Source of the DNA: Streptantibioticus parmotrematis
GTDB lineage: Bacteria; Actinomycetota; Actinomycetes; Streptomycetales; Streptomycetaceae
Direction: 5' to 3'
Length of the DNA: 64,000 bases
NCBI RefSeq assembly: GCF_019890615.1
Contig: NZ_JAINVZ010000013.1
Location: 124,001-188,000, forward strand
In this document: positions 7,184 to 37,735 of the stretch, one piece after another
Numbering within the stretch: the stretch's first letter is position 1
How the letters are laid out: each line of letters starts with the position of its first letter
Notes under the pieces: model-generated
What the model was told of the DNA's origin: nothing
Database searches by the model: none
The model's input: the letters and a program-made list of their open reading frames with translations, nothing else
Made by a program: the position numbers and the translations under genes

Positions 7184-7352
7184 GCGCCGATCCCCTTTCG
7201 TGTGAAGGACACAGGGCGGAGCGGTGGGGCCAGCGCTGCTGGATGGCGACTGGACGCATCCGTTATCGGGCCGGCGGCCACGCACCACTGCAAGGCTGAA
7301 TGGCCCCCTCTGCCCCGTGGACATGCTCGAACTAGTGGCGCAGAGCTCATTT

Positions 7353-8645
7353 CTACGAGGGGGCGATCAAGCCGGGAACGGGTGTTTGTGAGGCGGCGAG
7401 CGGCGCAGTACTCCTCGCCATGGCGAAACGTTGCAGAATCTCGTTCTTGCGCGGGCTGAACCTCGCTTGAGTGGCCGCCATGACGTCAGCTAGGTACGCG
7501 GCACCATTACCGAACTTCTCGTGTTCTTGAGGGAGTTCAATGATGTCGGGTGCGTCACCTCTGTAGACATTCATTGGGTCGCGTCCCGCTGCCACCGCTT
7601 CTATCTGCTCAAAAATGATCTTTCGCAGAAGGATGACACCTGCGTCTACTGTTCCCAGGTGCTCTTTGGTGCGGTCGGCGATCTTTCCCTGCGTCATCCA
7701 TGCCATGATGTCCTGGCCCTCGACATTGTTCAGCAGGAATTCTCCATCTGATGTGCGCCATGGCACCGGGTACGATGTCACTGGCTCCGGCCCAGGTGTC
7801 GCACGGTCTCCAGGCTTGTACGCCGTGTACCACAGTGCCCACGTGGTCTCATCGTCGATGGGCACTCTGATGTGAAAGCTGTAGCTCCCTCCTCCGCCGA
7901 GGCGCAGGAGGTTCGGGAAAACGAGCGGATGGCCGACGGCCCAGTCATCTGCCGTCGGGTTCTGCCCTTCGAGCATCCGGCGCAGAAGTATGCCGTAATC
8001 TGTCCGATCGAAGGCGGTCAGAGCGTTGATCTGGGTGAACATCTCGGGTATTTCGTCGGCGACGCCGCGCGAGGCCAGCCACTGGCTGTACCTTCCGTGC
8101 AACCATGCGACATGGTCGAGATCGACGGCGTTTTCGAGGACCTGTACGAAATTGCACGGTATGACGGCGTGCCCTACGTCACGGATCGCGTCGTCCCAGC
8201 AGAACAAGTCGTACCGGGGAAGCGCGGGTACTGGGTCCGGGCCGATGTATACGAAGATCAGGCCGCCCAGTTCCTGCGCGGAGTACGCCGTCGTTCGCAC
8301 TCGCTCGCGGAACGTGGATTCGGCCGGCTCGCCCGGCTGATGAAGGCATCTGCCTTTTCCGTCGAAGAGCCACCCGTGGTAGGGGCATCGCAGGCCGTGA
8401 TTCTCGACGATGCCCATCGACATGGAGGCGCCGCGATGCGGGCAGCTGTCGGACAGGACGTGCGTAGTACCGTCGCGATACCGAAAGATCGCGAGATCCT
8501 GTCCGAGGAGGCGGACCTTTCGCACGTCAGGGGACTTAAGGTCGTGGGAGAAGGCGACGGGCCACCAGTACCGGCGGAGCATTTCTCCCATAGGTGTACC
8601 CGAGCTGAAGCTTGTCAGGATGCGGTTGCGCTCTTCGGACAGCAT
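7353..8645 (-). CDS. Rieske non-haem iron oxygenase, phthalate-dioxygenase-like
   Basis: The 430-residue product has the Rieske centre ligands CPHRGAS and CPYHGW in its first third. The mononuclear iron site follows in NAVDLDHVAWLHG (around residue 175), giving the two His and the bridging Asp. It resembles single-component-alpha oxygenases of the phthalate 4,5-dioxygenase type. It would hydroxylate or demethylate an aromatic substrate and needs reductase and ferredoxin partners not seen beside it. ATG 8645 follows GGGGG and matches the family's normal N-terminus. An upstream in-frame ATG at 8822 with AAAGGGGAC would add about 59 unusual residues, so the start is not certain. It is the first gene of the minus-strand operon with the MIO lyase. 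Confidence 0.85.
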   Translation of the reverse strand: MLSEERNRILTSFSSGTPMGEMLRRYWWPVAFSHDLKSPDVRKVRLLGQDLAIFRYRDGTTHVLSDSCPHRGASMSMGIVENHGLRCPYHGWLFDGKGRCLHQPGEPAESTFRERVRTTAYSAQELGGLIFVYIGPDPVPALPRYDLFCWDDAIRDVGHAVIPCNFVQVLENAVDLDHVAWLHGRYSQWLASRGVADEIPEMFTQINALTAFDRTDYGILLRRMLEGQNPTADDWAVGHPLVFPNLLRLGGGGSYSFHIRVPIDDETTWALWYTAYKPGDRATPGPEPVTSYPVPWRTSDGEFLLNNVEGQDIMAWMTQGKIADRTKEHLGTVDAGVILLRKIIFEQIEAVAAGRDPMNVYRGDAPDIIELPQEHEKFGNGAAYLADVMAATQARFSPRKNEILQRFAMARSTAPLAASQTPVPGLIAPS

Positions 8646-9064
8646 TGCGAAACCCCCGGTCTCACACGCGGACTTAGTTGCACCGGCATTTCTGCTCGCG
8701 CGAGCTGCGACGTCGTCTCGACAGCGTCTGTCGCATGAACGAACCCGCTGTGCGCCTGTCATGTGCTCTTCGTCACATGGCGGTGCTGGATGTTCGAGAG
8801 GGTAGAGGGGGGCCTGGGACATGTCACGTCCCCTTTTCTCCATCATGTGGTCCCCTTTGAGGGATACGCGCAGTGGGCCCGAGCGCGGGCTCGGCTACGG
8901 CCCGCTTCCCGGCATACGGCCGCGGTGCCGTAACGAGCTCCCGCAAGGTGGGTGGTGAGGCGTTGAGGATGGCGGTGGGCTCGGTGTTCACTTCTGCCGT
9001 GCCGACGTCAGGTCCGCGGTCTGCTGGTGGGACAGCGGTCCAGCGTTGGCTTGGACGATGTTGC
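8646..9064. other. Intergenic stretch upstream of the Rieske gene
   Basis: It includes the possible N-terminal extension of the Rieske gene (to 8822) and about 240 bases with no convincing gene. The operon promoter presumably lies here, but I could not fix -35/-10 boxes. Confidence 0.35.
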
Positions 9065-9430
9065 TCATGTGCTCGCGGCGGCTGTGATGGCGGGGCGAGG
9101 CGCGCCGGTCCTTCCTGTGCGTGATGCCGTGCTCGAGCCGGATGCGTCGTGAGGAATGAGCCTTGCGCTGTCGGTGAGCACCATGGCCTTGACGGCGTTC
9201 TGGTCGCTCTTGCCGCGGTCGACGACCTCACCCAGGGTCCGCAACCGTACGCCGGGACTGAGGGTGCAGCGTCGTTCGGGCGGCAGGGGCCGGAGATCGC
9301 CGACGGCGCGGGTGATGGTCGAGAGGTCGACGCCGAACCAGCACGCGAGCAACGTCGTGTGTGGCCCCGTGGCGCAGGTGCACGAGGGTGGCCAGGAGCC
9401 GGGTCGACGAGGACGCGGCGGCCGTGTGCG
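9065..9430 (-). pseudogene. Remnant of a DDE transposase (left copy)
   Basis: The minus strand reads a degenerate stretch containing LLACWFGVDLSTITRAVGDLRP and SPGVRLRTLGEVVDRGKSDQ. This is the N-terminal helix-turn-helix region of IS5/ISL2-like transposases. The catalytic part is missing. The same segment recurs on the plus strand at 27.8 kb with close DNA identity (for example GTTGCGGACCCTGGGTGAGG in both). The two remnants therefore form an inverted pair around the 9.5-27.3 kb gene block. Confidence 0.6.
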
Positions 9431-9538
9431 TCTGAGTGGGTCGCTCTGGCAGCGTCCGGTGCTCTTCCCGAAGTCCTCGAAGAAGGTGCCAAATCGTCCC
9501 TGAACGGGGACGTGTGAGCGGTGACGTGACGTGAAACT

Positions 9539-11323
9539 ATGCCGCGCATGAAAGCAGAACCAGCCAATCCGGAAAGCGGAGAGGCTCTCCAGGAGCGTGT
9601 CTCTGACAGCGTCCTGACCACGGCTTGGCGGCACCGAGGCCGTACGGCAGTGGTGTGTGGCGAGGACCGGCTGACTTATGCGGAGTTCCTTTCGCTGGTG
9701 GCTGGGTTCCGTGCCGAGCTGGACGAAGGACGGGGAGCGCGTGTCGGGGTGTTCGGGTACCGTACGGTGGCGCTCCCCGCCTGGTTGGTCGCCATCCAGC
9801 TTTCGGGGTGCTCGTTCGTCGTCCTTGATCCCAGCGCCTCGGAGTCCTTCGTCGAGTGGGTCCGCGAAGCGGCTGGTCTCAGTCGGGTGGTGGATCCGCG
9901 CACATGGCAGCGCCCGTCCGGCGCCGTCGCCACGACGGACCGACCTTCCGTCGGTACCCTCGACGACGAGGCGTACGTGCTCTACACGTCAGGGAGCACG
10001 GGCCGGCCCAAGGGCGTGTCTGTCACGCACCGCAACCTTGCGAGTTCCAACGCGGCACGGTTGGCGGTGTATAGGGAGTTCGGCGCCCCGACCTTTCTGG
10101 CTCTCTCCGCCTTCTTCTTCGACTCGTCCATGGCCGGCTTGTGGGCCACGCTGACTTCGGGTGGAACCCTGGTCATCGCGAGAGAGGACGAGCGTCGCGA
10201 CCCCTGGGACGTGGCGAGGCTGATCAGTCGTCACCGAATCACTCACGTCTTGTCGATTCCCGGGTTCTACGCGGAGGTGCTGCGCGCCATCCGGGCGCAG
10301 CGCGAGGTTGACCTGGAGACCTCGCTGAAGGTGGCCATCTGCGCCGGGGAGACGCTGCCGTCATCGGTGGTGGACTTGCATTTTGAAACTTTTGGACGAG
10401 TTCCTCTGATCAACGAGTACGGCCCCACCGAGTGCACAGTGTGGTCGACCTGGAAGCGGATGGATGCCCCGGGCATGGCGACGATCGGGACACCAATTCC
10501 CGGAACGACCGTTCATTTGCTCGATAGCCGTCTTATCGCTGTCCCGGCAGGCCATATTGGGCATATCGGCATATCTGGCCCGGGCGTGGCGAACGGCTAC
10601 CTCGCAGACCCTGAGGAGACCAGGAGGAGGTTCGTTCAACGTGAAGGCCCACGCGGCACGCGCGTGCGCGTCTATCTCACGGGGGACCTGGGCCGTATCC
10701 GCCCTGACGGGGAACTCGAGTATCTAGGGAGGCTCGACCGGCAGGTCAAGGTGCGGGGGGTGCGAGTCAACCTGGAGAGCGTTGAGAGAGTCCTGTCGGA
10801 CCATCAGGGCTTGCGGGAGGCGGCTTTGGTGTACGACGAACGGAATCAACGCTGCCACGCGTTCGCCGTCCGGGAGGAGCTGTCGGATGTCGCTGAGGCG
10901 GAAGTGCGCGCGGTGGTCGCGGACGCTCTGGGAGCCGGTCACGTCCCGGACGGGGTGACGTTCCTCGCCGATCTGCCGAGGACCAATCGAGGCAAGGTCG
11001 ACAGTGCCGCCCTGTTGGATCTCGTGCTGCCCGGCGTCGCCAGGCAGCGGGACACCGTGACGCCGAACCCGCCGAAGGCGGAGCAGGATATGCAGGTCCT
11101 GGTCGAGCAAGCGTGGGAATCCGTGCTCGGCGTGTCGTTGGGGGAGCAGACACGCCAGACCAGTTTCTTCGATCTCGGTGGCAACTCGATGTCCGTGCTG
11201 CGGCTGGCACGTGCCCTCTCTGAGGTCGCGGGCCGTCCGGTCTCGGCAGCGACGGTCTACCGCAACGACACCGTGGAACGGCAGGCGAAGTTGCTCGATG
11301 GGCTCGCCGCCTCACCCCTTTGA
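9539..11323 (+). CDS. NRPS adenylation-carrier didomain, histidine-like signature
   Basis: This 594-residue stand-alone module has an adenylation domain (about 1-500) with LYTSGSTGRPKG, a FFFDSS core, NEYGPTECTVW, and TGDLGRIRPDGELEYLGRLDRQVKVRG, then the lysine of NRGKVD. A carrier domain (about 520-594) has DLGGNSMS with the phosphopantetheine serine. Reading the specificity positions by motif alignment gives D-S-A-S-I-A-E-V-W-K. As I recall, the histidine code of bacitracin synthetase is D-S-E-L-T-A-E-V-C-K, so His or a related residue is likely. No condensation, thioesterase or MbtH gene is adjacent. A P450 follows 150 bases downstream, the arrangement used to beta-hydroxylate a carrier-bound amino acid (NikP1/NikQ, NovH/NovI). 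The ribosome site before ATG 9539 is weak; ATG 9548 is an alternative start. Confidence 0.85.
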   Translation: MPRMKAEPANPESGEALQERVSDSVLTTAWRHRGRTAVVCGEDRLTYAEFLSLVAGFRAELDEGRGARVGVFGYRTVALPAWLVAIQLSGCSFVVLDPSASESFVEWVREAAGLSRVVDPRTWQRPSGAVATTDRPSVGTLDDEAYVLYTSGSTGRPKGVSVTHRNLASSNAARLAVYREFGAPTFLALSAFFFDSSMAGLWATLTSGGTLVIAREDERRDPWDVARLISRHRITHVLSIPGFYAEVLRAIRAQREVDLETSLKVAICAGETLPSSVVDLHFETFGRVPLINEYGPTECTVWSTWKRMDAPGMATIGTPIPGTTVHLLDSRLIAVPAGHIGHIGISGPGVANGYLADPEETRRRFVQREGPRGTRVRVYLTGDLGRIRPDGELEYLGRLDRQVKVRGVRVNLESVERVLSDHQGLREAALVYDERNQRCHAFAVREELSDVAEAEVRAVVADALGAGHVPDGVTFLADLPRTNRGKVDSAALLDLVLPGVARQRDTVTPNPPKAEQDMQVLVEQAWESVLGVSLGEQTRQTSFFDLGGNSMSVLRLARALSEVAGRPVSAATVYRNDTVERQAKLLDGLAASPL

Positions 11324-17100: not shown

Positions 17101-18201
17101 ATGCGCCCAGTTCGCCAGCACTCCACCACAGGGTCCTCAGGGCTCGAACGGGCACAGGCCTATCTGGAGCACATGGCCCGTGGTGCCGAAGACGCCGCCG
17201 AGCGCTTCTCGGTCCAGGCTGCCCTGGACACCGAGTTCCGCAGCGTCATCCCCAGACCGTCGATCAGGCAGGCTGTAAGGCAACTCACCGGAACTGACCC
17301 AGGCTTCGACTTCAGCGCTGACGGGTTCACTGCCATGATCGGCCTCGTTCTGGCGGAGCGTGCTGAAGCAGCGATGCCGCGTGCGCTACTCGACACCTTC
17401 GCGAGCCTGGTCGCGGCTTGCCGTCACCGCTACAGATACAACTACTTCCTGGACAGCCCGCAATTCGCCCCCGACACCGACTGCACCGCACTGTCGGCCG
17501 CCGCGCTGTACGAGCATGGCCGCCTGACGCTGCCAGAGCTACGGCGTACGGCCCAGGACTTGTTGTCCGCCGCAGCATGCGACGCCGCAGGTTCGGAGCA
17601 CGGCGGCAGCAGGTCCGGCTCCCGGCCGCAGTCCGGTGTGATCATGGTCTACTGGGAGGATGCGGAGTCCGCTCCAGCCCCACCCAGAGGCCGCAAGCAT
17701 GATCCCGTGGCGTGCGCGAACGCCTTGTACACCATCTCGCTTGCTCAGCTGAACGGCTCGCGCGGAGAGTGGACGAAGGTGCTTGACGCGACGTGCAGTT
17801 ACGTTGCCACTCAGCTCACCTCGGCCGCCTATCTCTCCGGAACCCGCTACTACCCTGATCCCCATGCTCTGCTTTTCGCCGTATCGCGGCTCTGTGACAG
17901 GTTCCCCGCATACATGCGGTCGCTGGGAGATCTCTTACGGCACCGGCTGACCGAGCGACCTGTCGGCGGCGTCCCCCAAAACCCCCTATCGCTGGCCCTT
18001 TGGGTCATTGCCGGGCAGACGGCTGGGGTTCCGGCCGTTCGGCTCGACGAGGCACGGGATCTGCTTCTGCGCTGCCAGCGCCCGGACGGCTCCTGGCCCG
18101 CCGCGCCGTACTACCGCATGGGAAGGTTCGCCGTTCATTTCGGGTCCCCCCTCCTCACCACGCTCTTCGCGGTTCGAGCGTTGAATGACCCGAGGACGTA
18201 G
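17101..18201 (+). CDS. Class II terpene-cyclase-like / prenyltransferase-repeat protein
   Basis: The 366-residue product is shorter than normal bacterial class II diterpene cyclases (about 500). Around residue 127 it has DTDCTALSAAALYEHG, which lines up with the DxDDTA catalytic motif but has Cys in place of the last Asp. Near the C-terminus CQRPDGSWPA resembles a QW motif, followed by TTLFAVRALND. These point to a single alpha-barrel of the squalene-cyclase/class II type. The acid motif change means it may protonate a substrate differently, act as a non-catalytic partner, or do something else. It starts one base after the P450 stop and lies 54 bases upstream of a class I synthase, a standard pairing for two-step diterpene formation. 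Confidence 0.55.
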   Translation: MRPVRQHSTTGSSGLERAQAYLEHMARGAEDAAERFSVQAALDTEFRSVIPRPSIRQAVRQLTGTDPGFDFSADGFTAMIGLVLAERAEAAMPRALLDTFASLVAACRHRYRYNYFLDSPQFAPDTDCTALSAAALYEHGRLTLPELRRTAQDLLSAAACDAAGSEHGGSRSGSRPQSGVIMVYWEDAESAPAPPRGRKHDPVACANALYTISLAQLNGSRGEWTKVLDATCSYVATQLTSAAYLSGTRYYPDPHALLFAVSRLCDRFPAYMRSLGDLLRHRLTERPVGGVPQNPLSLALWVIAGQTAGVPAVRLDEARDLLLRCQRPDGSWPAAPYYRMGRFAVHFGSPLLTTLFAVRALNDPRT

Positions 18202-18255
18202 GCCGGGACGGACGCGCACCAGAGCCCAGGTACCCACGACGATGGAGACAGCCAT

Positions 18256-19218
18256 ATGAACGATGACGCGATCGCGGTGGGGGCCGCTGCCGCTGAGGGG
18301 CACGGGTACGAATTCGCCGGTGTCACCGACAGGCGACTGTTCGAACAATTGCATGCGTGGTCGAACGCGAACTGCACGTGTCCTCAAGATGCGGCAGGGC
18401 ACAGATCCCAGTGCTACGTGGCAGCTGTCTTCAGCGCCTTCTGCGCGCCGGAGCAGGCGACGCCTGATGAGGTCTTCATCTCGGCCAAGTGCGCGTTGCT
18501 GTTCTTCCTGGTCGACGACGGTCTGCCCGGTCAACTCACCGAGTTCGATCGCCTTCTCGCAACAGGCGGTGATCCGCAGGCCAACGAGCCGACCGCCTGC
18601 CTGGCCTCCGTGCTGGAGGACCTCCACGCTCGTGGTTGTGAGACCAGGTGGTTTCACACCACGGTTCGCGCGTGGGCGTCGAGCATGCGCCACGAGCAGA
18701 CGTTGGACATCCGCGACGTGACGCCTGAGGAGTACCACGTTCTGCGCCGGGAGACGATCTTCGTGTCCTGCATGGTGGCGTGCTGGATGTCTTTGGCACG
18801 TATCAGCACCCCGGCGAAACTCCTCGCTGCCCGTGCCGAGTTGCTTGAACTTGCCATACGCATCGTCACTATCGTCAACGACCTCGGGTCCTTGCAGGCG
18901 GACGCCGCACTTGCCGAAGTGACCGAAGCAGCGCGGGGAGGCCTTGTTGCCATCAACACCATTCTGCTCCGCGAACGCGTGCTGGGCTCACGGGAACGAG
19001 CGGTATCCGAAGCGATGAACCACCATGGTGCCCTTGTCGAAGGCTTTCGAACCCGCGGGCACGACCTCGCGGGGGACCGTCACGCGGGTCAGCAGGTCCC
19101 CGACCTGCTGACCGTGCTGCGCGCTGTGATCAACGGGAACCTGCAGGGCACGCGGCACCTGACCGCGGAGCGCTACCCTGGCGGCGCACAGCTACTGCAA
19201 CGGCTTGAGTTCGTGTAG
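18256..19218 (+). CDS. Class I terpene synthase
   Basis: The 320-residue protein has the metal-binding motif FFLVDDG (two Asp, no full DDxxD) around residue 90. The NSE-type motif NDLGSLQAD near residue 210 carries the Ser, with Asp for the usual Glu. The C-terminal ERY pair is in LTAERYPGG. These are the class I landmarks in the right order and spacing. It should ionise a prenyl diphosphate or a class II product. The preceding gene supports a diterpene route, but a sesquiterpene product cannot be ruled out. It ends the 9.5-19.2 kb operon. Confidence 0.75.
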   Translation: MNDDAIAVGAAAAEGHGYEFAGVTDRRLFEQLHAWSNANCTCPQDAAGHRSQCYVAAVFSAFCAPEQATPDEVFISAKCALLFFLVDDGLPGQLTEFDRLLATGGDPQANEPTACLASVLEDLHARGCETRWFHTTVRAWASSMRHEQTLDIRDVTPEEYHVLRRETIFVSCMVACWMSLARISTPAKLLAARAELLELAIRIVTIVNDLGSLQADAALAEVTEAARGGLVAINTILLRERVLGSRERAVSEAMNHHGALVEGFRTRGHDLAGDRHAGQQVPDLLTVLRAVINGNLQGTRHLTAERYPGGAQLLQRLEFV

Positions 19219-20186: not shown

Positions 20187-21269
20187 ATGTTCATGTCGCC
20201 GACCGGTGTCATCGTTGCAAAACCTGAGGAATTCACCTACTCATGGCCCCGACGGGCCGAGACCGACACTCCTTTGCGGCGTCTCGACATGAAGCTGGGG
20301 TCACGGCGGATGTCGTTGTGGCTCAAACTCGAATGCTTCAATCCCACTGGATCCGTGAAGTTTCGAACGGCATTGGCGCTTCTGCGTGCTCTTGATCATC
20401 AACGTCCGCTAGTTCCGGGAACGACCGTCGTAGAGTCAACCTCCGGGAATTTGGGACTGGCGCTCGCACACCTTTGTGCTGAACTCGACTGTCATTTCGT
20501 TGCTGTCGTCGACCCGCGCCTGCCCTCCCACCTGTGCCGTGCCATGAGTTCAGCTGGCGCGGAGGTGATCACCGTACACGATCTAGACGAACGCGGCGGC
20601 TATCTCTTGTCCAGGCTGCGGACGGTTCGGGAGATGTGCGAGTCGCGTGGCACACGTTGGACCAATCAGTACGGCGCTCCGGCCAACCCGCACGTGCACC
20701 GCGACATGACCGGTGTGGAGATCGTACGTCAGACAGGCGGTCTCCTGGATGCCTTGTTCGTGGCGGTCAGTACAGGAGGGACTCTCGCAGGTATCAGCGA
20801 ACGACTGAGGGCCGACGCTCCGGGCGCCCGGCTTGTCGCCGTCGACGTGGCGGGCTCACACGCCATCGCACCGGACGGCCACTCACCCCAATTGCTCACC
20901 GGTATTGGCGCTACGCGGGCCTCGTCGTTTCTGCGACCCCATCACTACGACGACTTTGCCCGTGTGTCCGAAGTCGAAGCGATCGCCCTGTGCCGGATCC
21001 TCGCCGAAGACACCGGGCTCGCGCTGGGTGGTTCAAGCGGCGCGGTGCTTTCGGCCTTCGTAGCCGATGCACGGCGTCGACTACGACCATTCCGCTGTCC
21101 CGTACTTCTGTGCCCCGACGGCGCGATTCGATATCGGGACACGGTGTACAGCGACAGATGGCTCAAGTCCAAGGCACGGCTCGGCGCCGTGACCGCGGCC
21201 ATGGCCAGTTCCCGCAGAGCGGGGCTAGAGTTCGCACTCGCCAAGGAGGAGCGGGATGTCAGCCCTTGA
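20187..21269 (+). CDS. SbnA-like PLP synthase for L-2,3-diaminopropionate
   Basis: This 360-residue fold-type II PLP enzyme has the PLP lysine in NPTGSVKFRTALAL and the phosphate loop VSTGGTLAG. The STSGNLGLALA segment is typical of cysteine-synthase relatives. Next to the SbnB-like gene it matches SbnA, which joins O-phosphoserine and glutamate to make N-(1-amino-1-carboxyethyl)glutamate. The ATG at 20187 follows GAGGGGG and starts the second operon. The last 14 bases overlap the SbnB-like gene, which supports a shared function. Confidence 0.85.
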   Translation: MFMSPTGVIVAKPEEFTYSWPRRAETDTPLRRLDMKLGSRRMSLWLKLECFNPTGSVKFRTALALLRALDHQRPLVPGTTVVESTSGNLGLALAHLCAELDCHFVAVVDPRLPSHLCRAMSSAGAEVITVHDLDERGGYLLSRLRTVREMCESRGTRWTNQYGAPANPHVHRDMTGVEIVRQTGGLLDALFVAVSTGGTLAGISERLRADAPGARLVAVDVAGSHAIAPDGHSPQLLTGIGATRASSFLRPHHYDDFARVSEVEAIALCRILAEDTGLALGGSSGAVLSAFVADARRRLRPFRCPVLLCPDGAIRYRDTVYSDRWLKSKARLGAVTAAMASSRRAGLEFALAKEERDVSP

Positions 21270-22293
21270 GCACACATCCGAGGTTCCATTGCGCTACCTG
21301 ACACGTGCGGACGTCGTGACGGCCTGTGCGCAATTCGATCCGGTCCAAGTCGTCCACGAGGCCCTGGAGCTTCACGGGCTGAGACGTACGACGCTGCCGG
21401 CGGAAGCCTACCTGGGCTGGGAGACGTCCGAGGGCGAACGAGCCCGAAGCCTGGCCTTGCCCGGGGCCCTGTGGGGAACCGATCCAGTCGTCGGCCTCAA
21501 GATCATCAATGGCAGCCTGGGGAACACCCGCCGCGGCATCGCGCGCGCGCAGGGCCTGACGTTCCTTTTTGACCTCGATACTGCGTGGCCGTTGGTCATG
21601 ATGGAGGCCGCCTACCTCAGCGCACTGCGTACGGCGGCCTATACGGCATTGTCGATCGACCACCTGGCCTCCTCCGCCTCCCGCATCGCGATCATCGGCT
21701 GCGGCGCCCTTGGTGAGGCCCACGTTCAGTTGCTCTCCCAGCGCCTGCCCGGCAGTCGGTTCCTGATACACGACATCGATGGCCATCGCCGCGACCAAAT
21801 GGCATCGCGATTGGCCGAAAGCGGTGTGCAGGCTGACGGCGTGAGTAGCGCGCGTGCCGCGGTCGAAGGGGCGGACGTCGTCGTGACCGTCACGACAGCC
21901 GACGCCTCCTATCTTGAGTTCGGATGGCTGCGTCCGGGAACGCTCATCGCCCACGTCTCGCTCGATGACGTCACCCCCGAGGTGGTCGAACGCGCAGATC
22001 TCGTGGTCGTGGACGACTGGGAGCTGGTGCGCAATGACAACCAGCGGCTGCTGGGACGGATGTATCGTGCCGCTCGCGTCACCGGCCCCGCGGACGTCAA
22101 CCAATCGCCGCGAGGTCGTCGGGTGGACGCCACCATGGCTCAGATACTCACGGCTGAGCACCCCGGCCGTACCAGCGTGGAACAAATCATCCTCAGTAAT
22201 CCCTTCGGTATGGGAATACTTGACGTCGCGTTCGCCCACCAAGTGTGGCAAGTGGCGCAAGCGACGGGCCTTGGAATGAAGCTACCGATTTGA
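21256..22293 (+). CDS. SbnB-like dehydrogenase (ornithine cyclodeaminase family)
   Basis: The 345-residue product belongs to the ornithine cyclodeaminase/mu-crystallin family, with the Rossmann motif IAIIGCGALGEAH and the upstream ALRTAAYTALSIDHLA helix. SbnB oxidatively cleaves N-(1-amino-1-carboxyethyl)glutamate to L-2,3-diaminopropionate and 2-oxoglutarate. Start 21256 has a strong AAGGAGGAGCGGG ribosome site inside the SbnA-like gene. The pair is found in staphyloferrin B, viomycin and zwittermicin pathways, which supports diaminopropionate as a building block here. Confidence 0.85.
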   Translation: MSALEHTSEVPLRYLTRADVVTACAQFDPVQVVHEALELHGLRRTTLPAEAYLGWETSEGERARSLALPGALWGTDPVVGLKIINGSLGNTRRGIARAQGLTFLFDLDTAWPLVMMEAAYLSALRTAAYTALSIDHLASSASRIAIIGCGALGEAHVQLLSQRLPGSRFLIHDIDGHRRDQMASRLAESGVQADGVSSARAAVEGADVVVTVTTADASYLEFGWLRPGTLIAHVSLDDVTPEVVERADLVVVDDWELVRNDNQRLLGRMYRAARVTGPADVNQSPRGRRVDATMAQILTAEHPGRTSVEQIILSNPFGMGILDVAFAHQVWQVAQATGLGMKLPI

Positions 22294-22324
22294 GTGCGAG
22301 TCCATAAGGAATGGAGGAAGTAGA

Positions 22325-23413
22325 GTGGTGAGCACACTGATCGAGGTCGGGGATCATCGCTTCCATCCTCTGTGGCTGCGGGACAACTGCCTGTGCCCCG
22401 AATGCCGCGAACCGGCGAGTTTCCAGAAGCTACTGGACCTCGGGCGACTTCCCGGTCTGCCGACGGCCCGGCGTTGGGAAGTGACGGATGGGACCCTTGT
22501 GGTGGACTGGGTGGGGACGCCCGAACACAGGAGTGTCTTCCCTCTCGAATGGCTGTCGGTACACGCTCACGACCAGCCGGCGAGTCGTGGGGATAAGTCA
22601 ATGGAGCCCTGGGATGCCACGACATGGCTGACCAGTCCGCCTGCTTGGCATGAGATCCAGGACTGTGATCCGGAAGGGGGACCGTGGGCTGATGATCTGG
22701 TCCGGTTCGGCATCGCCTTCCTCGCGAACGTGACTTCCGAGGAGCTCGACGCGTTCGCGACAAAGGTAGGGCCGCCATTCGTGACCGAGTTCGGCCGCGT
22801 GGTCGCCGTCGAGGCGGTGCGCGACGCTGATGACCTAGCTCTCAGCGGGGCCGAACTGAGTGTCCACACGGACTTTTCCGCGCACATGCACTCACCGCCC
22901 TTGCTGCAATTCATGCTCTGTGAAGCACAAGACCCCGGTGGGGGTGAATCGGTGTTCGTCGACGGTTTCCAGGTCGCGGAGCGCTTCCGATCCAAAAATC
23001 CACGGTACTTTGAGATGCTGGTGCGCACTCCGATCAACTTCCAGCAATTCTACGGGGACCACCATCTCTTCCACCAGCGCAGGCGCCCTGTGCTGGAGCT
23101 TGGCGAGGACGGCTCGGTCTCCGGAGTCTTCTTCGGTCATTCCCATGCCTGCAACTGGCGGATTGCGCCAGACGACGTGGAACTGTACTACGCCGCCTAC
23201 CACGCGTTCTTCGGTTGTTTGAAGAACCCTGCGAACCAGCTCCGACTACAGCTCGAAGCGGGCCAATGCGTGCTTCTCCGCAATGGCCGCCTGCTGCACG
23301 GCCGGGGCGCCTACGACCCGCGGGCCGGACGCAAGCTCATCACTCAGTGGACGAGTTGGGAGTACTTCGCGTCACGCCGCAGGTATCACCGGTACAAGCA
23401 TCTCTATCAATGA
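22325..23413 (+). CDS. Gamma-butyrobetaine-dioxygenase-like 2-oxoglutarate oxygenase
   Basis: The 362-residue protein has the small N-terminal zinc domain of this family (LWLRDNCLCPEC, residues about 16-27). The TauD-type catalytic domain follows, with iron ligands H and D in SVHTDFSAH, the distal His in LLHGRGAY and the 2OG-binding Arg in GRKLITQW. Homologues hydroxylate gamma-butyrobetaine or trimethyllysine. In this operon it more likely hydroxylates a diaminopropionate- or imidazoline-type amino acid. The GTG start follows GGAGGAAGTAGA. It lies 31 bases after the SbnB-like gene. Confidence 0.8.
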   Translation: MVSTLIEVGDHRFHPLWLRDNCLCPECREPASFQKLLDLGRLPGLPTARRWEVTDGTLVVDWVGTPEHRSVFPLEWLSVHAHDQPASRGDKSMEPWDATTWLTSPPAWHEIQDCDPEGGPWADDLVRFGIAFLANVTSEELDAFATKVGPPFVTEFGRVVAVEAVRDADDLALSGAELSVHTDFSAHMHSPPLLQFMLCEAQDPGGGESVFVDGFQVAERFRSKNPRYFEMLVRTPINFQQFYGDHHLFHQRRRPVLELGEDGSVSGVFFGHSHACNWRIAPDDVELYYAAYHAFFGCLKNPANQLRLQLEAGQCVLLRNGRLLHGRGAYDPRAGRKLITQWTSWEYFASRRRYHRYKHLYQ

Positions 23414-23448
23414 ACGACTGGGTATACCCAGTGCCAAGGAGGACTCAG

Positions 23449-23823
23449 ATGATCATCCGCAGCCTGTCCGAGGCGAAGAGCGTCGAGTGGGGCAGTGGGG
23501 TCAGCCGTCGGCTCCTGCTCGCCGCCGACGGCATGGGATTCACCGTCGCCGACACGACCGCGCGCCCCGGTACCGTCTCGAAGATGGAATATTCCCGCCA
23601 TCTGGAGGCGGTGTACTGCCTGGAAGGACGAGCCGAACTCATCGACAGCGAAGGCCGCACTCACGTGATCGAGCCCGGGGTGATGTACGCACTTGACAAG
23701 AACGACGCCCACACCATCGTCGCCGATGCTGAGAAGGGCCTACGCGCTATCTGCGTGTTCACACCGGCACTTGAAGGACCGGAGCGCCACGATCTCGACG
23801 AGTCGACGTTCTCCCACTACTGA
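23449..23823 (+). CDS. Ectoine synthase (EctC) homologue
   Basis: At 124 residues this is the size of EctC and shows its cupin pattern: SRRLLLAADGMGF, HLEAVYCLEG, YALDKNDAH and ICVFTPALEGPERHD. The residues I recall as metal ligands in EctC (Glu in HLEA, Tyr in YALDK, His in NDAH) are present. The tryptophan three residues before the SRR arginine pair in true EctC is replaced by Gly. EctC closes N-gamma-acetyl-diaminobutyrate to ectoine. No ectB or ectD is nearby, but diaminopropionate genes and an acetyltransferase are, so a shorter homologue of the substrate is likely. ATG 23449 has AAGGAGG. Confidence 0.85.
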   Translation: MIIRSLSEAKSVEWGSGVSRRLLLAADGMGFTVADTTARPGTVSKMEYSRHLEAVYCLEGRAELIDSEGRTHVIEPGVMYALDKNDAHTIVADAEKGLRAICVFTPALEGPERHDLDESTFSHY

Positions 23824-23860
23824 GTCCGGCCCGCTGACCCCGCCCCGATGGGAGCTTGAG

Positions 23861-24391
23861 ATGGACGACTACCTACGGGAGCCGCGTATCAGTCCCGCGA
23901 CGACCGACCACCTACCGGCGATCGTGGAATTGGCGGATCGGTGGCAACTGCGCCCAGGAGCTGGCGTTGTCACCGATCAGGGATTCTTGATGGCCGGGTG
24001 GGGGCGACGCGACTACGAGTTGTTCCTGAGCGAGGCGGAGCTGTTCTTCGTTGCCATTCATGAGGACGAACTCGCTGGCTTCTTCATCGGCTACAGCTGC
24101 GAGCGACGCCACTTTGAGCCATGGCTGCATGCCGAGCTTGCCCGACATCTCGACGCGTACATGCTGTTTGAACAGATGTGCATCGCTCCTGAGTGGGCAC
24201 ATCGAGGCGTGGGCAGCCGAATGATGTCCTCGATGCTCGCTCTCGACCGTTCGGCCCCCGTAATCAGCGAGTCCGCTCGGGTGCCGCTGAACACGGCCAG
24301 TACGAATTTGCACCGGAAGTTCGACTTCACACCGCTGGTCGAGCTGACACGTCCGAGCGGCTTGCAGACCACAGTCTGGATCCACGAGTAG
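23861..24391 (+). CDS. GNAT-family N-acetyltransferase
   Basis: The 176-residue protein has the GNAT core: FFVAIHEDELAGFFIGY, MCIAPEWAHRGVGSRMM (acetyl-CoA loop R-G-V-G) and the late NTASTNLHRKFDF. It does not look like a classical EctA by eye. Next to the EctC homologue it is the best candidate to acetylate the side-chain amine of diaminopropionate and so make the cyclase substrate. ATG 23861 follows GGGAGC. It is the last gene of the operon and ends head-to-head against the LAL regulator gene. Confidence 0.75.
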   Translation: MDDYLREPRISPATTDHLPAIVELADRWQLRPGAGVVTDQGFLMAGWGRRDYELFLSEAELFFVAIHEDELAGFFIGYSCERRHFEPWLHAELARHLDAYMLFEQMCIAPEWAHRGVGSRMMSSMLALDRSAPVISESARVPLNTASTNLHRKFDFTPLVELTRPSGLQTTVWIHE

Positions 24392-24458: not shown

Positions 24459-27290
24459 TTAGTCCGTCTCCCCGACGAGGCGCGCCACCTCCCGGCGAGA
24501 CGTGATCCGCAGCTTGGCGAGGATGTGCGACACGTGTGTCTCGACCGTGCGCCGCGAAAGCATCAGTTGTCCGGCGATGTCGGGGTTGGACCATCCCTTT
24601 GCCACCAGTTCCGCGATGCGCAGTTCACTGTCGGTCAGGGCCTGCCAGCCTGTTGTGGGTCGCTGCCGCATGCCCCGCACACCCGGCCGTACTCCGTGTA
24701 CGCGCAGCCGGGCCATCGCCCGGCGCACCGTCCAGATGGCACCGAGATTCGAGTAGATGCCCAGGGCTTCGGCCAGCAGAGGGCGAGCCTTGTCGTGCTC
24801 ACCTGTCGCGGCCCAGGATTCGGCGGCGTCCTCTAGAACGAACCCCAGCATCGCCGTGCGCCCGCTCCTCCGATAGTAAGCGGCCGCACCCTCGATGGCT
24901 TCCGGGGTCCTGTCGAGCAGCCCCCGGCACCAAAGGGCGACTGCGGCCCCCTGAGGAGTCGAGGAGAAGTCGTCCTCGCATTCCGCCACTTCGACTGCGG
25001 CATGGGCCGTACCTGAGTCCTGGATACTTGTCGCCAACCGAGTCAAGGCGGGAAGGAAAGATCCACGTTCGAGCGTCGCCGCATCGCTGTCCGGTGCTAG
25101 TAGCGGCCGTAGTTCCTCGACGCCGAGGTCGGGCCGCCCCGATCTCTCCGCCTGCGCGGCCTGTGCCGCCCGCACCATGATCTCCGGTCCCAGTTTAGCC
25201 GCCCCTGCTTTGACGCGGGCCAACATCTCCACCTGTCGGGCCGCTTCAGCACCGTCGTCCCGGTGAGCGGCAATCAGTGCCAGGTGGCTGCACCTGATGA
25301 TCCCCATCATCGACCCCGCGGGCACCTCCGAAGCCAGCTCGAGGTCGGTGAGGGCGTCGTCCCATCTACCCTGGGGGTAGGAGATCACCGAGGCGGCCTG
25401 TACCCGGAGATCGTCCAGGCGCGGGATGTTGCCAATACGTTCCGCCAAGGCCAAGGCCTGCCGTGCACCCTCCGTGGCCTCCGGCAACCTGTCCAGATCG
25501 GTGAGCATGGTGAACCGGTTGCCGAGCATCTGCAGGTGCAGGTCCGCCAGGTCGTCGTGGCCGGCCGAGACCGCCAGAGCGCGGTCCACATACGCGAGGC
25601 CAGCCTCGAGATCGGAGGCCGTGACACGCTGCATGGAGAGCGAATGGAGCGCGAAGGCCATGCCCACAGGGTCGGTTGTGCGCTCGGCGGTGTCCAGCGC
25701 ATTGAGAGCGACCATCTCTGCCTCGTCCACCTGCAACCGCGCGCGCAGGGAACTCGACCGTAGCGCGTTGAGCCGGGCGAGCCATGCGGGTGGCCTACCA
25801 GGTTCCGTGACCGCGGCTGTGAGGGCCTCCAACGCCTCGGAGCTTCGGCCCATGCGCTGAAGGCTTCGTCCCAGTAGCCAGTCGGCGCGGCAGAGCCGCT
25901 CAGGATCGCCCATCGCGCGCACCCTCGCCAGCCGAGCGAGTCTTTCGGCCTGATCCCACCTGCCCAGCAGGTAGGCCACCACGCCCAGTTGGTCCTCCAA
26001 CACCGCATACCGCGGGTCAGACTCACGCAGTTGACGCAACGCCCGTTCCAGCAGCTCGGACGTGATGCCGGGGGAGCGGTGGGTGAGCGCGACCGCGTTC
26101 TCAGCGATCCAGTCCAACTCCCAGCCGTCCGCCTCTTCGGGAATGTTGAGTACCAACTGCGCTACCCGCTCGACAGAGGCACCGCCACGGAACAGGACCT
26201 GCGCGGCATGGCGGTACATCGCTGAACGCACGGCTGTTGGCATCGCCTCGTACAGCGTCTGTCGCAACAAGCCGTGTCGGAAGCGTAGCCTTCGCCGGTA
26301 CGGTTCCACCACGCCCACCGCGATCGCGCCCTCCAAAACAGGGACCAACTCGGGCACCGGCCGCCCCACGATCGCTGCCAGGTCCGTCACGGAGAAGTCC
26401 GGTCCCAGCAGTGCCGCGGTGCGTAGCACGTCGCGGACCTCACCGGACAAGAAGTCCAGCCGGTCGGCGATCACCCCGGCCAGCGACACGATGGCGACCG
26501 GCGCGGCGCCGGTCCGCAACTCCGCGCGACCGGCGACGAGATGGACGGCATCAGCCCGTCTCAGGGCGTCCAGCAACTCCCTGACATACAGGGGGTTTCC
26601 CGACGCAAGTCGAAGCTGCTCCGTCAGAGCGATACCGGGCTCGGCCCCGAGGATGTCGGATGCCATCGTCGTTACGCAGCTCGGCGGCAGAGGGTGCAGG
26701 GGGATCACCAGACCTCCGGTTTCCAGCACAACCCTGCGCACCTGCTCAATTGTCGTGAGTCCAGCCGTGGGCCGGTATGAGCCGACCAGCAGCAATGGCG
26801 ACTGGGTCGCCGCGCGGCACATGCCGCGCCACAGGATGACGCTGGCCTCGTCCAGCCAGTGCAGGTCCTCGACGATCAGGACCAGCGGGCCGTCCGCCGT
26901 GAGCCGGTCCACCAGACCGAGCACTCTTTCCACCGCGGCCATTACCGGGTCGCCGGCGACGCCCCACGCTCCGGCTTCCACGGAGCTGGAGAGCGCCGTG
27001 GCAGCAGCGGCGCGCCGTGGGTCCGAGGACCCCTCGTCTATGCCCAGAGCTTCCTTCATCACCGACAATGGGAAGCGCTGACCGAGCGCGTCGCACACAC
27101 CGTGAAGCACCACGCAACCCGCGTCCACCGCTCGTGCCAGGCCCGCCGCCAGCAGCGCCGATTTGCCGATCCCCGGCTCGCCCTCGACGAGAAGCGCGCG
27201 GCCGCGCCCCGCGGCGACGTCCGCCACCGCCTTGCGCAGCAAGACCACTTCCTCGTCGCGGCCCACGAACAAGACTGATCCCCCTGTCAT
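24459..27290 (-). CDS. LAL-family LuxR transcriptional activator
   Basis: About 943 residues. The N-terminal AAA-type ATPase has Walker A VEGEPGIGKSALL near residue 40 and Walker B LVLIVEDLHWLDEAS near residue 145. A long TPR-like helical middle follows. The C-terminal LuxR helix-turn-helix is LTDSELRIAELVAKGWSNPD...SRRTVETHVSHILAKLRI. Large ATP-binding LuxR regulators usually activate nearby specialised-metabolite operons. This one converges on the ectoine-type operon and is enclosed by the same inverted transposase remnants. GTG 27311 is an alternative start; ATG 27290 places the GRDEE motif at the usual distance. Confidence 0.85.
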   Translation of the reverse strand: MTGGSVLFVGRDEEVVLLRKAVADVAAGRGRALLVEGEPGIGKSALLAAGLARAVDAGCVVLHGVCDALGQRFPLSVMKEALGIDEGSSDPRRAAAATALSSSVEAGAWGVAGDPVMAAVERVLGLVDRLTADGPLVLIVEDLHWLDEASVILWRGMCRAATQSPLLLVGSYRPTAGLTTIEQVRRVVLETGGLVIPLHPLPPSCVTTMASDILGAEPGIALTEQLRLASGNPLYVRELLDALRRADAVHLVAGRAELRTGAAPVAIVSLAGVIADRLDFLSGEVRDVLRTAALLGPDFSVTDLAAIVGRPVPELVPVLEGAIAVGVVEPYRRRLRFRHGLLRQTLYEAMPTAVRSAMYRHAAQVLFRGGASVERVAQLVLNIPEEADGWELDWIAENAVALTHRSPGITSELLERALRQLRESDPRYAVLEDQLGVVAYLLGRWDQAERLARLARVRAMGDPERLCRADWLLGRSLQRMGRSSEALEALTAAVTEPGRPPAWLARLNALRSSSLRARLQVDEAEMVALNALDTAERTTDPVGMAFALHSLSMQRVTASDLEAGLAYVDRALAVSAGHDDLADLHLQMLGNRFTMLTDLDRLPEATEGARQALALAERIGNIPRLDDLRVQAASVISYPQGRWDDALTDLELASEVPAGSMMGIIRCSHLALIAAHRDDGAEAARQVEMLARVKAGAAKLGPEIMVRAAQAAQAERSGRPDLGVEELRPLLAPDSDAATLERGSFLPALTRLATSIQDSGTAHAAVEVAECEDDFSSTPQGAAVALWCRGLLDRTPEAIEGAAAYYRRSGRTAMLGFVLEDAAESWAATGEHDKARPLLAEALGIYSNLGAIWTVRRAMARLRVHGVRPGVRGMRQRPTTGWQALTDSELRIAELVAKGWSNPDIAGQLMLSRRTVETHVSHILAKLRITSRREVARLVGETD

Positions 27291-27311
27291 GCTAAGACGA
27301 TATCCAGACAC

Positions 27312-29252: not shown

Positions 29253-29510
29253 GGGTGTCCTCCGTCGGTTCCGGTACGTCGTCGTGGCCCTGACGAGGTA
29301 CGGGCCTCGGTGCGGTTGGGTTCAATGAGGGGGCCGGAAGAACCAGGCCGCCGCGGCATAGAACCGAGTGGCGATGCCGTCCGTATCTCTATGGGGGACG
29401 GTGGCTGCACGCCCCTCGCCCAGCCCTCAAGGACTGGCAGTGGCTGGCTTGTACAGGAGGCGAGATGAAGCTCATGGTCGGTCGTTGTGGCCCCGCACCC
29501 GATCATGGAT

Positions 29511-30414
29511 CTAGGCAGTTTCGCTTAGATCAGCTGGTCGTTGTTCCGGTTGTGCCGTTGACTGATGCGCAGTGGGCGCGGATCGAGCCGTTGCTCCCGG
29601 ACCGGACACCGAGGCGGGGTGGCCGGTGGCGTAGCCATCGAGTGGTGATCGACGCGATCGCTTTCAAGTTTCAGAGCGGAACCCAGTGGGTTCACCTGCC
29701 CGAGAGGTACGGCAACTGGCGGGGCGTCTACAACCGGCGCGGATGTGGGCCGTCGACGGCACCTGGGAGCGGGTGTTCACCGCTCTGATGGCCCAGGCCG
29801 ACGCCGACGAGGACCTCAACTGGGCCGTATCGGTGGACTCCACGATCGTGCGGGCGCACCAGCACGCGGCGGGAGCCCGCAAAAAGGGGCCCCGGCGGGC
29901 GAACCCGACGACCACGCCATCGGCCGGTCCCGCGGCGGACTGACCACGAAGATCCATCTTGCCGCCGACGACCGCTGCCGGCCGCTGGCCTTCCATCTCA
30001 CCGCTGGGCAGGCGGGGGACGCGCCCGCCTTCACGGACGTCATGGCCCGCCTGCGCGTCCCCCGACCGCGGGGTCGACCCCGCACCAGGCCGGACGTGGT
30101 CCTGGCCGACAAGGCCTATTCGTCCCGCGCGATCCGCGACCATCTGCGCAAGCGAGGCATCCGAGCGGTGATCCCCGTTCCGGCGGACCAACGCGGTCAT
30201 CGACTGCGGCGCGGGAGCCGGGGCGGCAGGCCACCGGCCTTCGACCGCGAGACCTACAAGCAGCGCAACACCGTCGAGCGGTGCATCAACCGCCTCAAGC
30301 AATGGCGAGGGATCGCCACCCGCTATGAGAAGACCGCCACCATCTACCTGGCCGGACTACACATTGCAGGGATCTTCCTGTGGTCAGCCAGCTGATCCAA
30401 ACGAAACCACCTAG
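29511..30414 (+). mobile_element. IS5-family element, probably inactive
   Basis: The left end (CTAGGCAGTTTCGCTTAGAT at 29511) matches the reverse complement of the right end (CTAGGTGGTTTCGTTTGGAT, ending 30414), followed by shared ATCAGCTGG. CTAG at both edges may represent target sequence. The transposase inside is broken. Confidence 0.75.
29552..30395 (+). pseudogene. Frameshifted IS5-family transposase
   Basis: Three frames are needed. The first (from GTG 29552) encodes PLTDAQWARIEPLLPDRTP through YGNWRGVYNRR. A one-base change near 29742 moves to the frame encoding RMWAVDGTWERVFTALMAQ and VDSTIVRAHQHAAG. A second change at the GCAAAAAGGGG run (about 29879) is the normal programmed -1 site and leads into IGRSRGGLTTKIHL to the C-terminal RNTVERCINRLKQWRG. 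The first shift is not part of normal expression, so the gene is likely dead unless it is a sequencing error. Confidence 0.75.
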
Positions 30415-31131: not shown

Positions 31132-32628
31132 ATGTCTTCCTTGCTCAGCAGTCTGAGTCTTGACGCGACGCTCACGATGGAGATGCTCGAGCGCGCCGCT
31201 CAGCCCATCGAAGTGCTGATACCCGATGCCATGATGGCGCAGGTGGAGCGTGGCCACGCGTTCGTCCAGAAGATTCTGGCCGAGGGCGGCCAGCCGGTGT
31301 ATGGGGCCACGACCGGGTTCGGGCCGCTGGTGGACTTTCACGGCCGGACGGCCCAGGAAGACCAGTGCGACAACGCCTTGCAGCATCTCACCGCCGGCCA
31401 GGGCCCCGACCTGCCGCTGCCCGTCGTACGGGCGGCCATGTTGATCCGTCTTCGGTCCCTCTCATGCGGTCTGTCCGGCATCTCGCCCGCCGCCATCGAG
31501 GCGTTGCGTGCGGCCCTGGCAACCGCCTTCACTCCGGCAGTACCGACGCTGGGATCGGTGGGTGCCAGCGGTGACTTGGTGCCGTTGGCCTATGTGGCGC
31601 AGAGCCTGCGCGGGGTTGGCGACGCCTATGTGGGTGGCGAGCGAATGCCCGCGGCCCGGGCGCTGGCCGCGGTCGGGCTGAGCTCTCTTGTCTTCACCGG
31701 CCGGGACGCGCTCTCCCTGGTCAACGGCACATCGGTGACCAGTGCCGCCGGCGGCCTGGCGGTGGCGTCGCTGCAGCGTTCACATGAAGTCGCCATCGCT
31801 CTGAGCGCTTTGCTCACCGACCTGCTCGGCGCGGCGCCGGCGTTCCTGCTCCCGCCGCTGCTGGCAGCCTATGGGCATCCGGCAGTCCGACAGGTCGGGC
31901 AGGGGCTGACAAGTTGGCTCGAGGGCAGCGTTCCGTCGGGTACCCGCTCGCTGCAGGAGCCGTACAGTGTGCGGTGCGTCCCGCAGCTGCTGGGGGCCGC
32001 GCGTTCCGCGGTGGACTGGGCCGGCCAGGTGGTGCAGTACGACCTCGAAGGCGTCAGCGACAACCCGCTGTTCTTCGCCGACGAGGACTTGGTCGCCCAT
32101 GGTGGCAACTTCTTCGGCCAGCCGACCGCGTTCGCCGCCGACCTGCTCTCGATGGTCGCCACGCAGCTCGGCAACCTGGCCGAGCGGCAGCTGGACCTAC
32201 TGGTGGACCCGCACCGCAACGCTGGCCTGCCACCCATGCTCACCCCTCTGGCGGGTGAGCACCACGGGGTCCAGGGCGTCCAGCTCGCCGCCACCGCGAC
32301 GGTCGTCTCGATGCGCCGCCATTGCGTCCCCGCGAGCACGCAGAGCGTGCCGACGAACCTGCACAACCAAGACGTGATCCCGTTCGGCACGCAGGCCGCC
32401 TTGACAGCGCTGCACCAGGCGAAGTCGCTGCGGATACTGCATGGCAGCCTAGCCGTCGCTCTGCGGCAGGCGGCGTACTTGAAACCCGGTGGGGCATCGG
32501 CTCCTCGGTGTGCCGAACTTGTCGCCGCACTGGCTGACCTGGTCACGCCGATCGCTGAGGATCGCCCTCTGGACGCCGATGTTCGCGCCGCCGCCGATGT
32601 CCTGGACCGGGTCGTGCGAGAGGCCTGA
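31132..32628 (+). CDS. Tyrosine ammonia-lyase-like MIO enzyme
   Basis: The 498-residue protein has catalytic Tyr57 in YGATTGFGPL, the MIO triad Ala145-Ser146-Gly147 in GSVGASGDLVPL, NGTSVTSA, and EGVSDNPLFF. The selectivity pair is His85-Leu86, the combination that marks tyrosine ammonia-lyases such as the Rhodobacter enzyme, so p-coumarate is the expected product. It differs from the other MIO enzyme in this window. The downstream hydroxylase/methyltransferase fusion begins 2 bases after its stop, and a coumarate-CoA-ligase-like gene follows, which fits a phenylpropanoid route. Confidence 0.85.
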   Translation: MSSLLSSLSLDATLTMEMLERAAQPIEVLIPDAMMAQVERGHAFVQKILAEGGQPVYGATTGFGPLVDFHGRTAQEDQCDNALQHLTAGQGPDLPLPVVRAAMLIRLRSLSCGLSGISPAAIEALRAALATAFTPAVPTLGSVGASGDLVPLAYVAQSLRGVGDAYVGGERMPAARALAAVGLSSLVFTGRDALSLVNGTSVTSAAGGLAVASLQRSHEVAIALSALLTDLLGAAPAFLLPPLLAAYGHPAVRQVGQGLTSWLEGSVPSGTRSLQEPYSVRCVPQLLGAARSAVDWAGQVVQYDLEGVSDNPLFFADEDLVAHGGNFFGQPTAFAADLLSMVATQLGNLAERQLDLLVDPHRNAGLPPMLTPLAGEHHGVQGVQLAATATVVSMRRHCVPASTQSVPTNLHNQDVIPFGTQAALTALHQAKSLRILHGSLAVALRQAAYLKPGGASAPRCAELVAALADLVTPIAEDRPLDADVRAAADVLDRVVREA

Positions 32629-37405: not shown

Positions 37406-37735
37406 ATGGAACTTGCACAGCAGCAAGGGGTCCCCGAGCACCTGGGCCGTATCAGGATGGTGGACCTGATGGCCGAGCCGTACGGCACGCTGGCCGGGAT
37501 CCGGGAGGCCACGCCGGCGTTCGCGATCGAGAACAACGGTTACCGGATGTGGGCCATCACCCGGTATCGAGACGTCCGCAAGGTTCTGGCAGAGCCCACG
37601 GTGCTCCGGGACCTCGTCGAGAACCGCCATGCGATCAACGCGCACTGTATCGTCCGCCCCTTGCCAAGAGCACACCTCCCACACGGATCTAGACGCAGCT
37701 TCTTCGACCGCGACGGCGAGAACCATCATCGGCTT
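37406..37735 (+). pseudogene. 5' fragment of a second P450, cut by an IS
   Basis: ATG 37406 follows GAGAGGTCGAT and begins LGRIRMVDLMAEPYGTLAG, then RMWAITRYRDVRKVLAEP, typical P450 N-terminal sequence. It runs to RDGENHH, the position just before the C-helix. The frame then enters the insertion sequence. No 3' half is seen beyond the IS, so the rest was lost. It lies directly after the first P450 and was probably in the same operon. Confidence 0.7.

Follow-up and report, generated by a model that had tools for sequence, protein, structure and literature searches.

A five-gene operon of Streptantibioticus parmotrematis that joins putative diaminopropionate genes to an orphan EctC-like protein: a possible route to imidazoline carboxylates

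The window analysed here, a stretch of 64,000 nucleotides on contig C5 of the 7.4-Mb genome of Streptantibioticus parmotrematis, carries a five-gene operon in which a pair of SbnA/SbnB-like genes, probably making L-2,3-diaminopropionate (Dap), is joined to a 2-oxoglutarate (2OG) oxygenase, an orphan relative of ectoine synthase (EctC) and a GNAT acyltransferase. The genes are certain, while their product is a matter of testable inference: we favour, tentatively, a pathway of secondary metabolism in which Dap would be N-acylated, closed by the EctC-like enzyme to a 2-alkylimidazoline-4-carboxylate, and oxidized. Such a pathway, leading from Dap to 2-methyl- or 2-alkylimidazoline-4-carboxylate and a hydroxylated or imidazole form of it, is possibly an undescribed one, and would provide a natural route to compounds resembling 4,5-dihydro-2-methylimidazole-4-carboxylate (DHMICA). 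The genes of the operon are, in order:

20187-21269, + strand: SbnA-like pyridoxal phosphate (PLP) enzyme, predicted first step to Dap (matches TIGR03945, PALP)
21256-22293, + strand: NAD-dependent dehydrogenase resembling SbnB, predicted to catalyse the second step to Dap (OCD, TIGR03944)
22325-23413, + strand: Fe(II)/2OG oxygenase of TauD/gamma-butyrobetaine-hydroxylase type, with an N-terminal CxCxxC motif (TauD, GBBH-like_N)
23449-23823, + strand: cupin of the EctC family, placed in the orphan clade and proposed to act as a cyclodehydratase (PF06339 Ectoine_synth)
23861-24391, + strand: GNAT N-acyltransferase, proposed to acylate Dap (Acetyltransf_1)

The first two frames overlap by 14 nt and the remaining gaps are 31, 35 and 37 nt; all five frames, which together span 20187-24391, are intact with their motifs kept, and, with five full-length family matches, chance is not at issue. 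A search for promoters and terminators gave no signal better than expected by chance. An earlier note, made from the letters of this DNA, had called the same five genes, and Pfam and NCBIfam matches confirm each of them at these coordinates and on this strand; its remark that ectB and ectD are absent also holds for the operon, a complete ectABCD set being present elsewhere in the host genome. The operon parallels ectBACD step by step (a diamine maker, a GNAT, an EctC, a 2OG oxygenase), so that the order of the chemical steps and the metal ligands of EctC are shared with the canonical pathway. The differences are that the diamine made by EctB is replaced by one that is one carbon shorter, from SbnA/SbnB, that the GNAT is not EctA and the oxygenase not EctD, and that the cupin belongs to a separate clade in which Trp21 and Asn38 are changed. 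According to the pathway that we propose, SbnA and SbnB would make Dap, as their families and the kinship with CmnB/CmnK suggest, and the GNAT would acylate one of its two amino groups, most simply from acetyl-CoA. The cupin, whose Fe(II) would be bound by Glu, Tyr and His, would then close the ring between the amide and the second amine, a dehydration that yields 2-methyl- (or 2-alkyl-) imidazoline-4-carboxylate, and the oxygenase may hydroxylate or desaturate the ring, desaturation yielding an imidazole. The regiochemistry of acylation is irrelevant, because N-alpha- and N-beta-acyl Dap yield the same imidazoline.

With respect to the diamine, the best solved relative of the SbnA-like protein is CmnB (200 bits), followed by SbnA (146 bits), and its PLP lysine and STSGNLG motif align; among solved structures the SbnB-like protein is closest to CmnK (214 bits), with the putative ornithine cyclodeaminase 4m54 next at 152 bits. 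Since CmnB and CmnK, the makers of Dap for capreomycin, lead both lists, Dap is the natural assignment for the product of the pair. The scores against the NCBI equivalog models are 278 bits to TIGR03945 and 228 bits to TIGR03944, below the respective cut-offs of 350 and 327. The adjacency of the two genes, the PLP and NAD motifs and the best solved relatives are all as in SbnA/SbnB of staphyloferrin B and CmnB/CmnK of capreomycin, but there the pair is partnered with a siderophore synthetase or a nonribosomal peptide synthetase (NRPS), and here it shares an operon with an EctC-like cyclase.

The cupin scores 114 bits against PF06339 Ectoine_synth (cut-off 27), and its predicted fold matches EctC with Z of 17-18. 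Using the residue numbering of Paenibacillus lautus EctC, with the contacts described for that enzyme (PMC6344544), the alignment shows that the Fe ligands Glu57, Tyr84 and His92 are all kept, as are Ser23, Arg25, Thr40, Tyr52, Cys104 and Phe106. The substrate site is changed at two positions, Trp21 to Gly and Asn38 to Ala; a Trp sits three residues upstream of Gly21 (W-G-S-G-V-S-R-R). Among the marks of a bona fide ectoine synthase, the cupin has the Fe ligands and lacks Trp21, Asn/His38, linkage to ectA/ectB and a place in the clade of the ect clusters. The earlier note had read the Gly as fitting a changed substrate. While the Gly is real, the argument built on it fails: all 40 orphan EctC-like proteins that were aligned carry the same Gly, in neighbourhoods that are quite different and never beside sbnA. 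We therefore rejected it as an indicator of a Dap substrate, and regard it as a mark of the orphan clade, whose motif is W-G-[NS]-G-x-S-x-R, with the Trp three residues upstream of the Gly (one diverged member has Arg at the Trp place) and with Ala, Thr or Cys at position 38. A shift of the Trp by two residues in some orphan EctCs has been described (PMC6344544). The cupin does depart from positions that are nearly invariant in these 40 proteins: Cys59 (39/40) is Val, Leu50 (38/40) is Met, and Val68 (37/40) is Leu, and at some of these positions, for example with Val at 59, it has the residue of canonical EctC. The loss of these residues is consistent with a changed substrate, without identifying it.

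In a maximum-likelihood tree the cupin falls inside the orphan clade, whose split from canonical EctC has 100/100 support; the tree does not settle where within the clade it belongs, and no other member has so long a terminal branch (0.64). The role of these orphan EctCs was called unresolved in a 2018 review (PMC5924519). In 62 of 67 orphan loci an acyl carrier protein (ACP) and an acyl-CoA dehydrogenase (ACAD) of one shared module are found, nearly always with an adenylating ligase (A) and often with a transglutaminase-like protein. Four loci (L056, L091, L117, L126) also have a pseudouridine-5'-phosphate glycosidase, to which the last three add a HAD phosphatase. In showdomycin biosynthesis the cyclase SdmE has been proposed to turn L-Gln into 2-amino-1-pyrroline-5-carboxylate (ADPC), SdmC to activate and SdmD to carry ADPC, and SdmA/SdmB to join on ribose and remove its phosphate (PMC8724604). 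The four glycosidase loci have the showdomycin layout, and from this gene content we infer that SdmE is the EctC homologue. Because orphan EctCs sit overwhelmingly in A-ACP-EctC-ACAD modules (L034-L066, L088-L091, L112-L136), many of them are suggested to be glutamine cyclases of the showdomycin type, and the likely reaction of the clade, by this analogy, is closure of a five-membered ring.

As observations on the clade in their own right, the showdomycin-like clusters (glycosidase, ligase, ACP, EctC-like protein, ACAD) extend over 8824-12848 in L117, 8800-11835 in L126, 7209-13018 in L091, which is on a Burkholderia stagnalis plasmid, and about 9841-14493 in L056. Of the orphan loci with the EctC-like module, 29 (L034-L042, L044-L046, L048-L049, L054-L055, L089, L090, L112-L116, L120, L121, L127, L128, L135, L136) add TrpA/TrpD-like enzymes, many of them also TrpC/PRAI-like and some TrpB-like ones, possibly an analogue of the tryptophan pathway built on an aminopyrrole carboxylate.

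The relevance of glutamine closure to the operon derives from the fact that N-beta-acetyl-Dap is isosteric with glutamine (C-gamma replaced by N, the amide NH2 by CH3), and that in both compounds attack of the alpha-amine on the amide carbonyl gives a five-membered amidine. If the clade closes glutamine, it would for this reason be the right kind of EctC for acetyl-Dap. EctC of Halomonas elongata makes ADPC from Gln and also hydrolyses DL-DHMICA, a compound identical to the product that we propose (PMC5924519). The same background admits a different and rather unlikely reading, in which the cupin is an SdmE-like glutamine cyclase that makes ADPC, and Dap enters the same natural product as a building block of its own. 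It is consistent with the position of the nearest relatives of the cupin (identity up to 58%) in A-ACP-EctC-ACAD modules, some of them showdomycin-like, with the L-Gln cyclization proposed for SdmE (PMC8724604), and with the formation of ADPC from Gln as a side reaction of EctC (PMC6344544, PMC5924519). However, none of the adenylation ligase, ACP and ACAD of the module is present in the operon, no clade-type ligase was found in the host genome (the best match, at 39% identity, lies within NRPS domains), the cupin departs from clade-invariant positions including Cys59, and no role would be left for the GNAT and the oxygenase. In general, it can be seen that the cupin shares with the solitary EctCs of Czech et al. 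2018, probably of the SdmE type, the clade, the motif around Gly21, the loss of Asn38 and probably the five-ring amidine closure, but those proteins sit with A, ACP and ACAD and probably act on Gln, whereas this one has sbnAB, a GNAT and a 2OG oxygenase as partners and has lost Cys59 and other residues of the clade.

The GNAT scores 29 bits to Acetyltransf_1 and matches no NCBIfam model even at an E-value of 10, whereas the host EctA, taken as a control, reaches 209 bits with the EctA model TIGR02406. The fold predicted for the GNAT (pLDDT 85) is nearest to small-amine and N-terminal acetyltransferases, PA4794-like proteins and phosphinothricin acetyltransferases. The oxygenase scores 131 bits to TauD and 21.9 bits to GBBH-like_N, just under the cut-off of 22.8; it keeps the HxD...H motif (HTD at 181, LHGR at 324), and it is closest to TmpA, its best solved relative, and to gamma-butyrobetaine dioxygenase; it is not of the EctD type. 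In a pairwise alignment, Val160 and Leu173 occupy the positions of BBOX1 Trp181 and Tyr194, which we take to be the aromatic residues that hold the trimethylammonium group; because of this replacement a trimethylammonium substrate seems unlikely. EctD of S. salexigens did not act on DHMICA (PMC6890836), which fits the use of a different oxygenase in the operon.

The framing of the operon as ectoine biosynthesis, also part of the earlier note, proved wrong. The host encodes two Ectoine_synth proteins, and the second belongs to a complete canonical cluster (locus L003, contig C8 of genome G000), whose EctB and EctD were named from their sequences and gene order:

9023-9541, - strand: EctA
7696-8964, - strand: EctB
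7243-7641, - strand: EctC
6334-7239, - strand: EctD

As this cluster is complete, the operon is dispensable for ectoine in the host, and we rejected it as the host's ectoine pathway. A related notion, that the cupin serves as an auxiliary ectoine synthase using N-gamma-acetyl-diaminobutyrate from the host ectA/ectB, draws on the presence of ectABCD and on the orphan EctC of Pseudomonas syringae, which allowed an H. elongata ectC mutant to make ectoine again (PMC5924519). It is very improbable: the host already possesses a bona fide EctC (196 bits), Trp21 and Asn38 are missing from their usual places (P. lautus EctC with Trp21 changed to Ala kept 9.7% of its activity; PMC6344544), and sbnAB would be pointless.

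In a search of the literature no paper connected EctC with Dap or with a methylimidazoline carboxylate of natural origin, and the earlier note gave no described pathway of such form; in the literature found, DHMICA-like compounds are described only as synthetic ectoine analogues. A further related system is the formation of methylimidazoline by DapY in daptides, also an enzymatic imidazoline from an acylated 1,2-diamine (PMC12338566), but DapY is an unrelated, ATP-dependent YcaO enzyme that acts on a peptide C-terminus.

Several observations weigh against the imidazoline pathway. Our searches covered two overlapping sets of family genomes, first 298 and later 395, together with 396 from the phylum, and in the 67 orphan loci no SbnA, no GNAT and no oxygenase of the types found in the operon occurs within 10 kb of the EctC gene, nor is there an SbnB over its family cut-off within 50 kb of an orphan EctC in 40 genomes. 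The co-occurrence of sbnAB with ectC-like genes that the earlier note suggested looking for has thus no second case in these sets. In the showdomycin-like loci L117 and L126 a remote gene of the OCD family occurs without sbnA, its identity to SbnB being 28-29% and its TIGR03944 score 35 bits; no EctC-like gene stands beside the relatives of the oxygenase (L108, L109) or of the GNAT (L093-L103); and a scan of genome contigs gave only two relatives, neither with sbnAB. The arrangement is therefore a singleton among the sampled loci and genomes, and this is the main weakness of any reading as one pathway. Furthermore, both members of the Dap pair score under their equivalog cut-offs, the GNAT is not EctA by NCBIfam and its substrate is only proposed, and what was observed with EctC is the hydrolysis of DHMICA rather than its formation, with the equilibrium between Gln and ADPC lying on the Gln side (PMC5924519), so that ring closure of a free substrate may be disfavoured in the absence of a subsequent step that draws it forward. 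Finally, Asn38, a carboxylate contact in EctC, is Ala in the cupin, and the substrate could accordingly be bound to a carrier or amidated.

This last point leads to another reading, which we hold to be possible but doubtful: Dap may be acylated with a longer, unusual or carrier-bound acyl group, from upstream A-PCP (PCP, peptidyl carrier protein) or polyketide synthase (PKS) proteins for example, and the cupin would close a 2-substituted imidazoline on a carrier or an amide. The occurrence of Ala, Thr or Cys at position 38 throughout the clade and the distance of the GNAT from EctA speak for it, as do an A-PCP didomain protein upstream and an A-ACP-KS-AT-ACP-TE protein (KS, ketosynthase; AT, acyltransferase; TE, thioesterase) just beyond the window edge; on the other hand, there is a gap of 969 bp between the operon and its nearest upstream neighbour, and the five genes include neither a condensation domain nor an amide ligase that the searches could find. 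The specificity code of the upstream A domain, read by eye, is D-S-A-F-I-A-E-V-W, which we take not to be Gln-like, although this is not decisive. The two neighbouring features are:

9539-11323: A-PCP didomain protein
24459-27311, - strand: LuxR-family regulator with AAA_16 ATPase, a convergent neighbour (AAA_16, GerE and TPR matches), possibly a local regulator of the operon, judged by position only

The upstream region is a mosaic of biosynthetic genes, with AMP-binding proteins, an aromatic amino acid lyase, a Rieske protein, the A-PCP didomain, two P450s, an alcohol dehydrogenase, a GntG-type aldolase, a methyltransferase and a terpene synthase; in such a setting, membership in the operon is by itself no proof of one linear pathway, which is a further point to be set against our proposal. 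One may even suppose that the operon is a decayed remnant whose parts do not function together, or that the Dap genes, the EctC-like gene and the GNAT, which could for instance be an acetyltransferase for self-resistance, serve different products. The occurrence of the arrangement in a single genome, the transposase genes downstream and a G+C content of 62-65% in the region, against mostly 66-70% further downstream, are in keeping with this idea, but five intact frames with kept motifs, on one strand and closely spaced (from a 14-nt overlap to 37-nt gaps), make it quite improbable. The insertion sequence (IS)-type transposase genes, at 29465-30395 and 37629-38201 (the latter an IS4/5-family match), are a sign of a rearranged region. 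Two aromatic amino acid lyase genes of the 4-methylideneimidazole-5-one (MIO) type flank it on opposite strands (5579-7324 and 31132-32628), each with an AMP-binding protein nearby. At 17101-19218 a 366-residue protein without a Pfam match, with a QRPDGSWP-type motif as in terpene cyclases, lies beside a weak Terpene_syn_C_2 match; the two are possibly a two-part terpene cyclase.

Overall we rank, with less than firm conviction, the formation of an imidazoline from Dap ahead of the glutamine cyclase, the carrier-bound or longer acyl group, the mosaic and the auxiliary ectoine synthase. The five-membered ring from acetyl-Dap, which the earlier note had put forward, survives as the simplest account that gives each of the five genes a part, with a cupin from a clade that is likely to close five-membered rings, but without the argument from Gly21 and without the ectoine frame. 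If it is true, the chemistry of EctC would be that of a general former of amidine rings, six-membered in ectoine and five-membered in ADPC and the imidazoline, with the outcome set by the diamine or amide supplied; imidazoline amino acids would have a source in biology, and one orphan EctC would have a concrete function that can be assayed.

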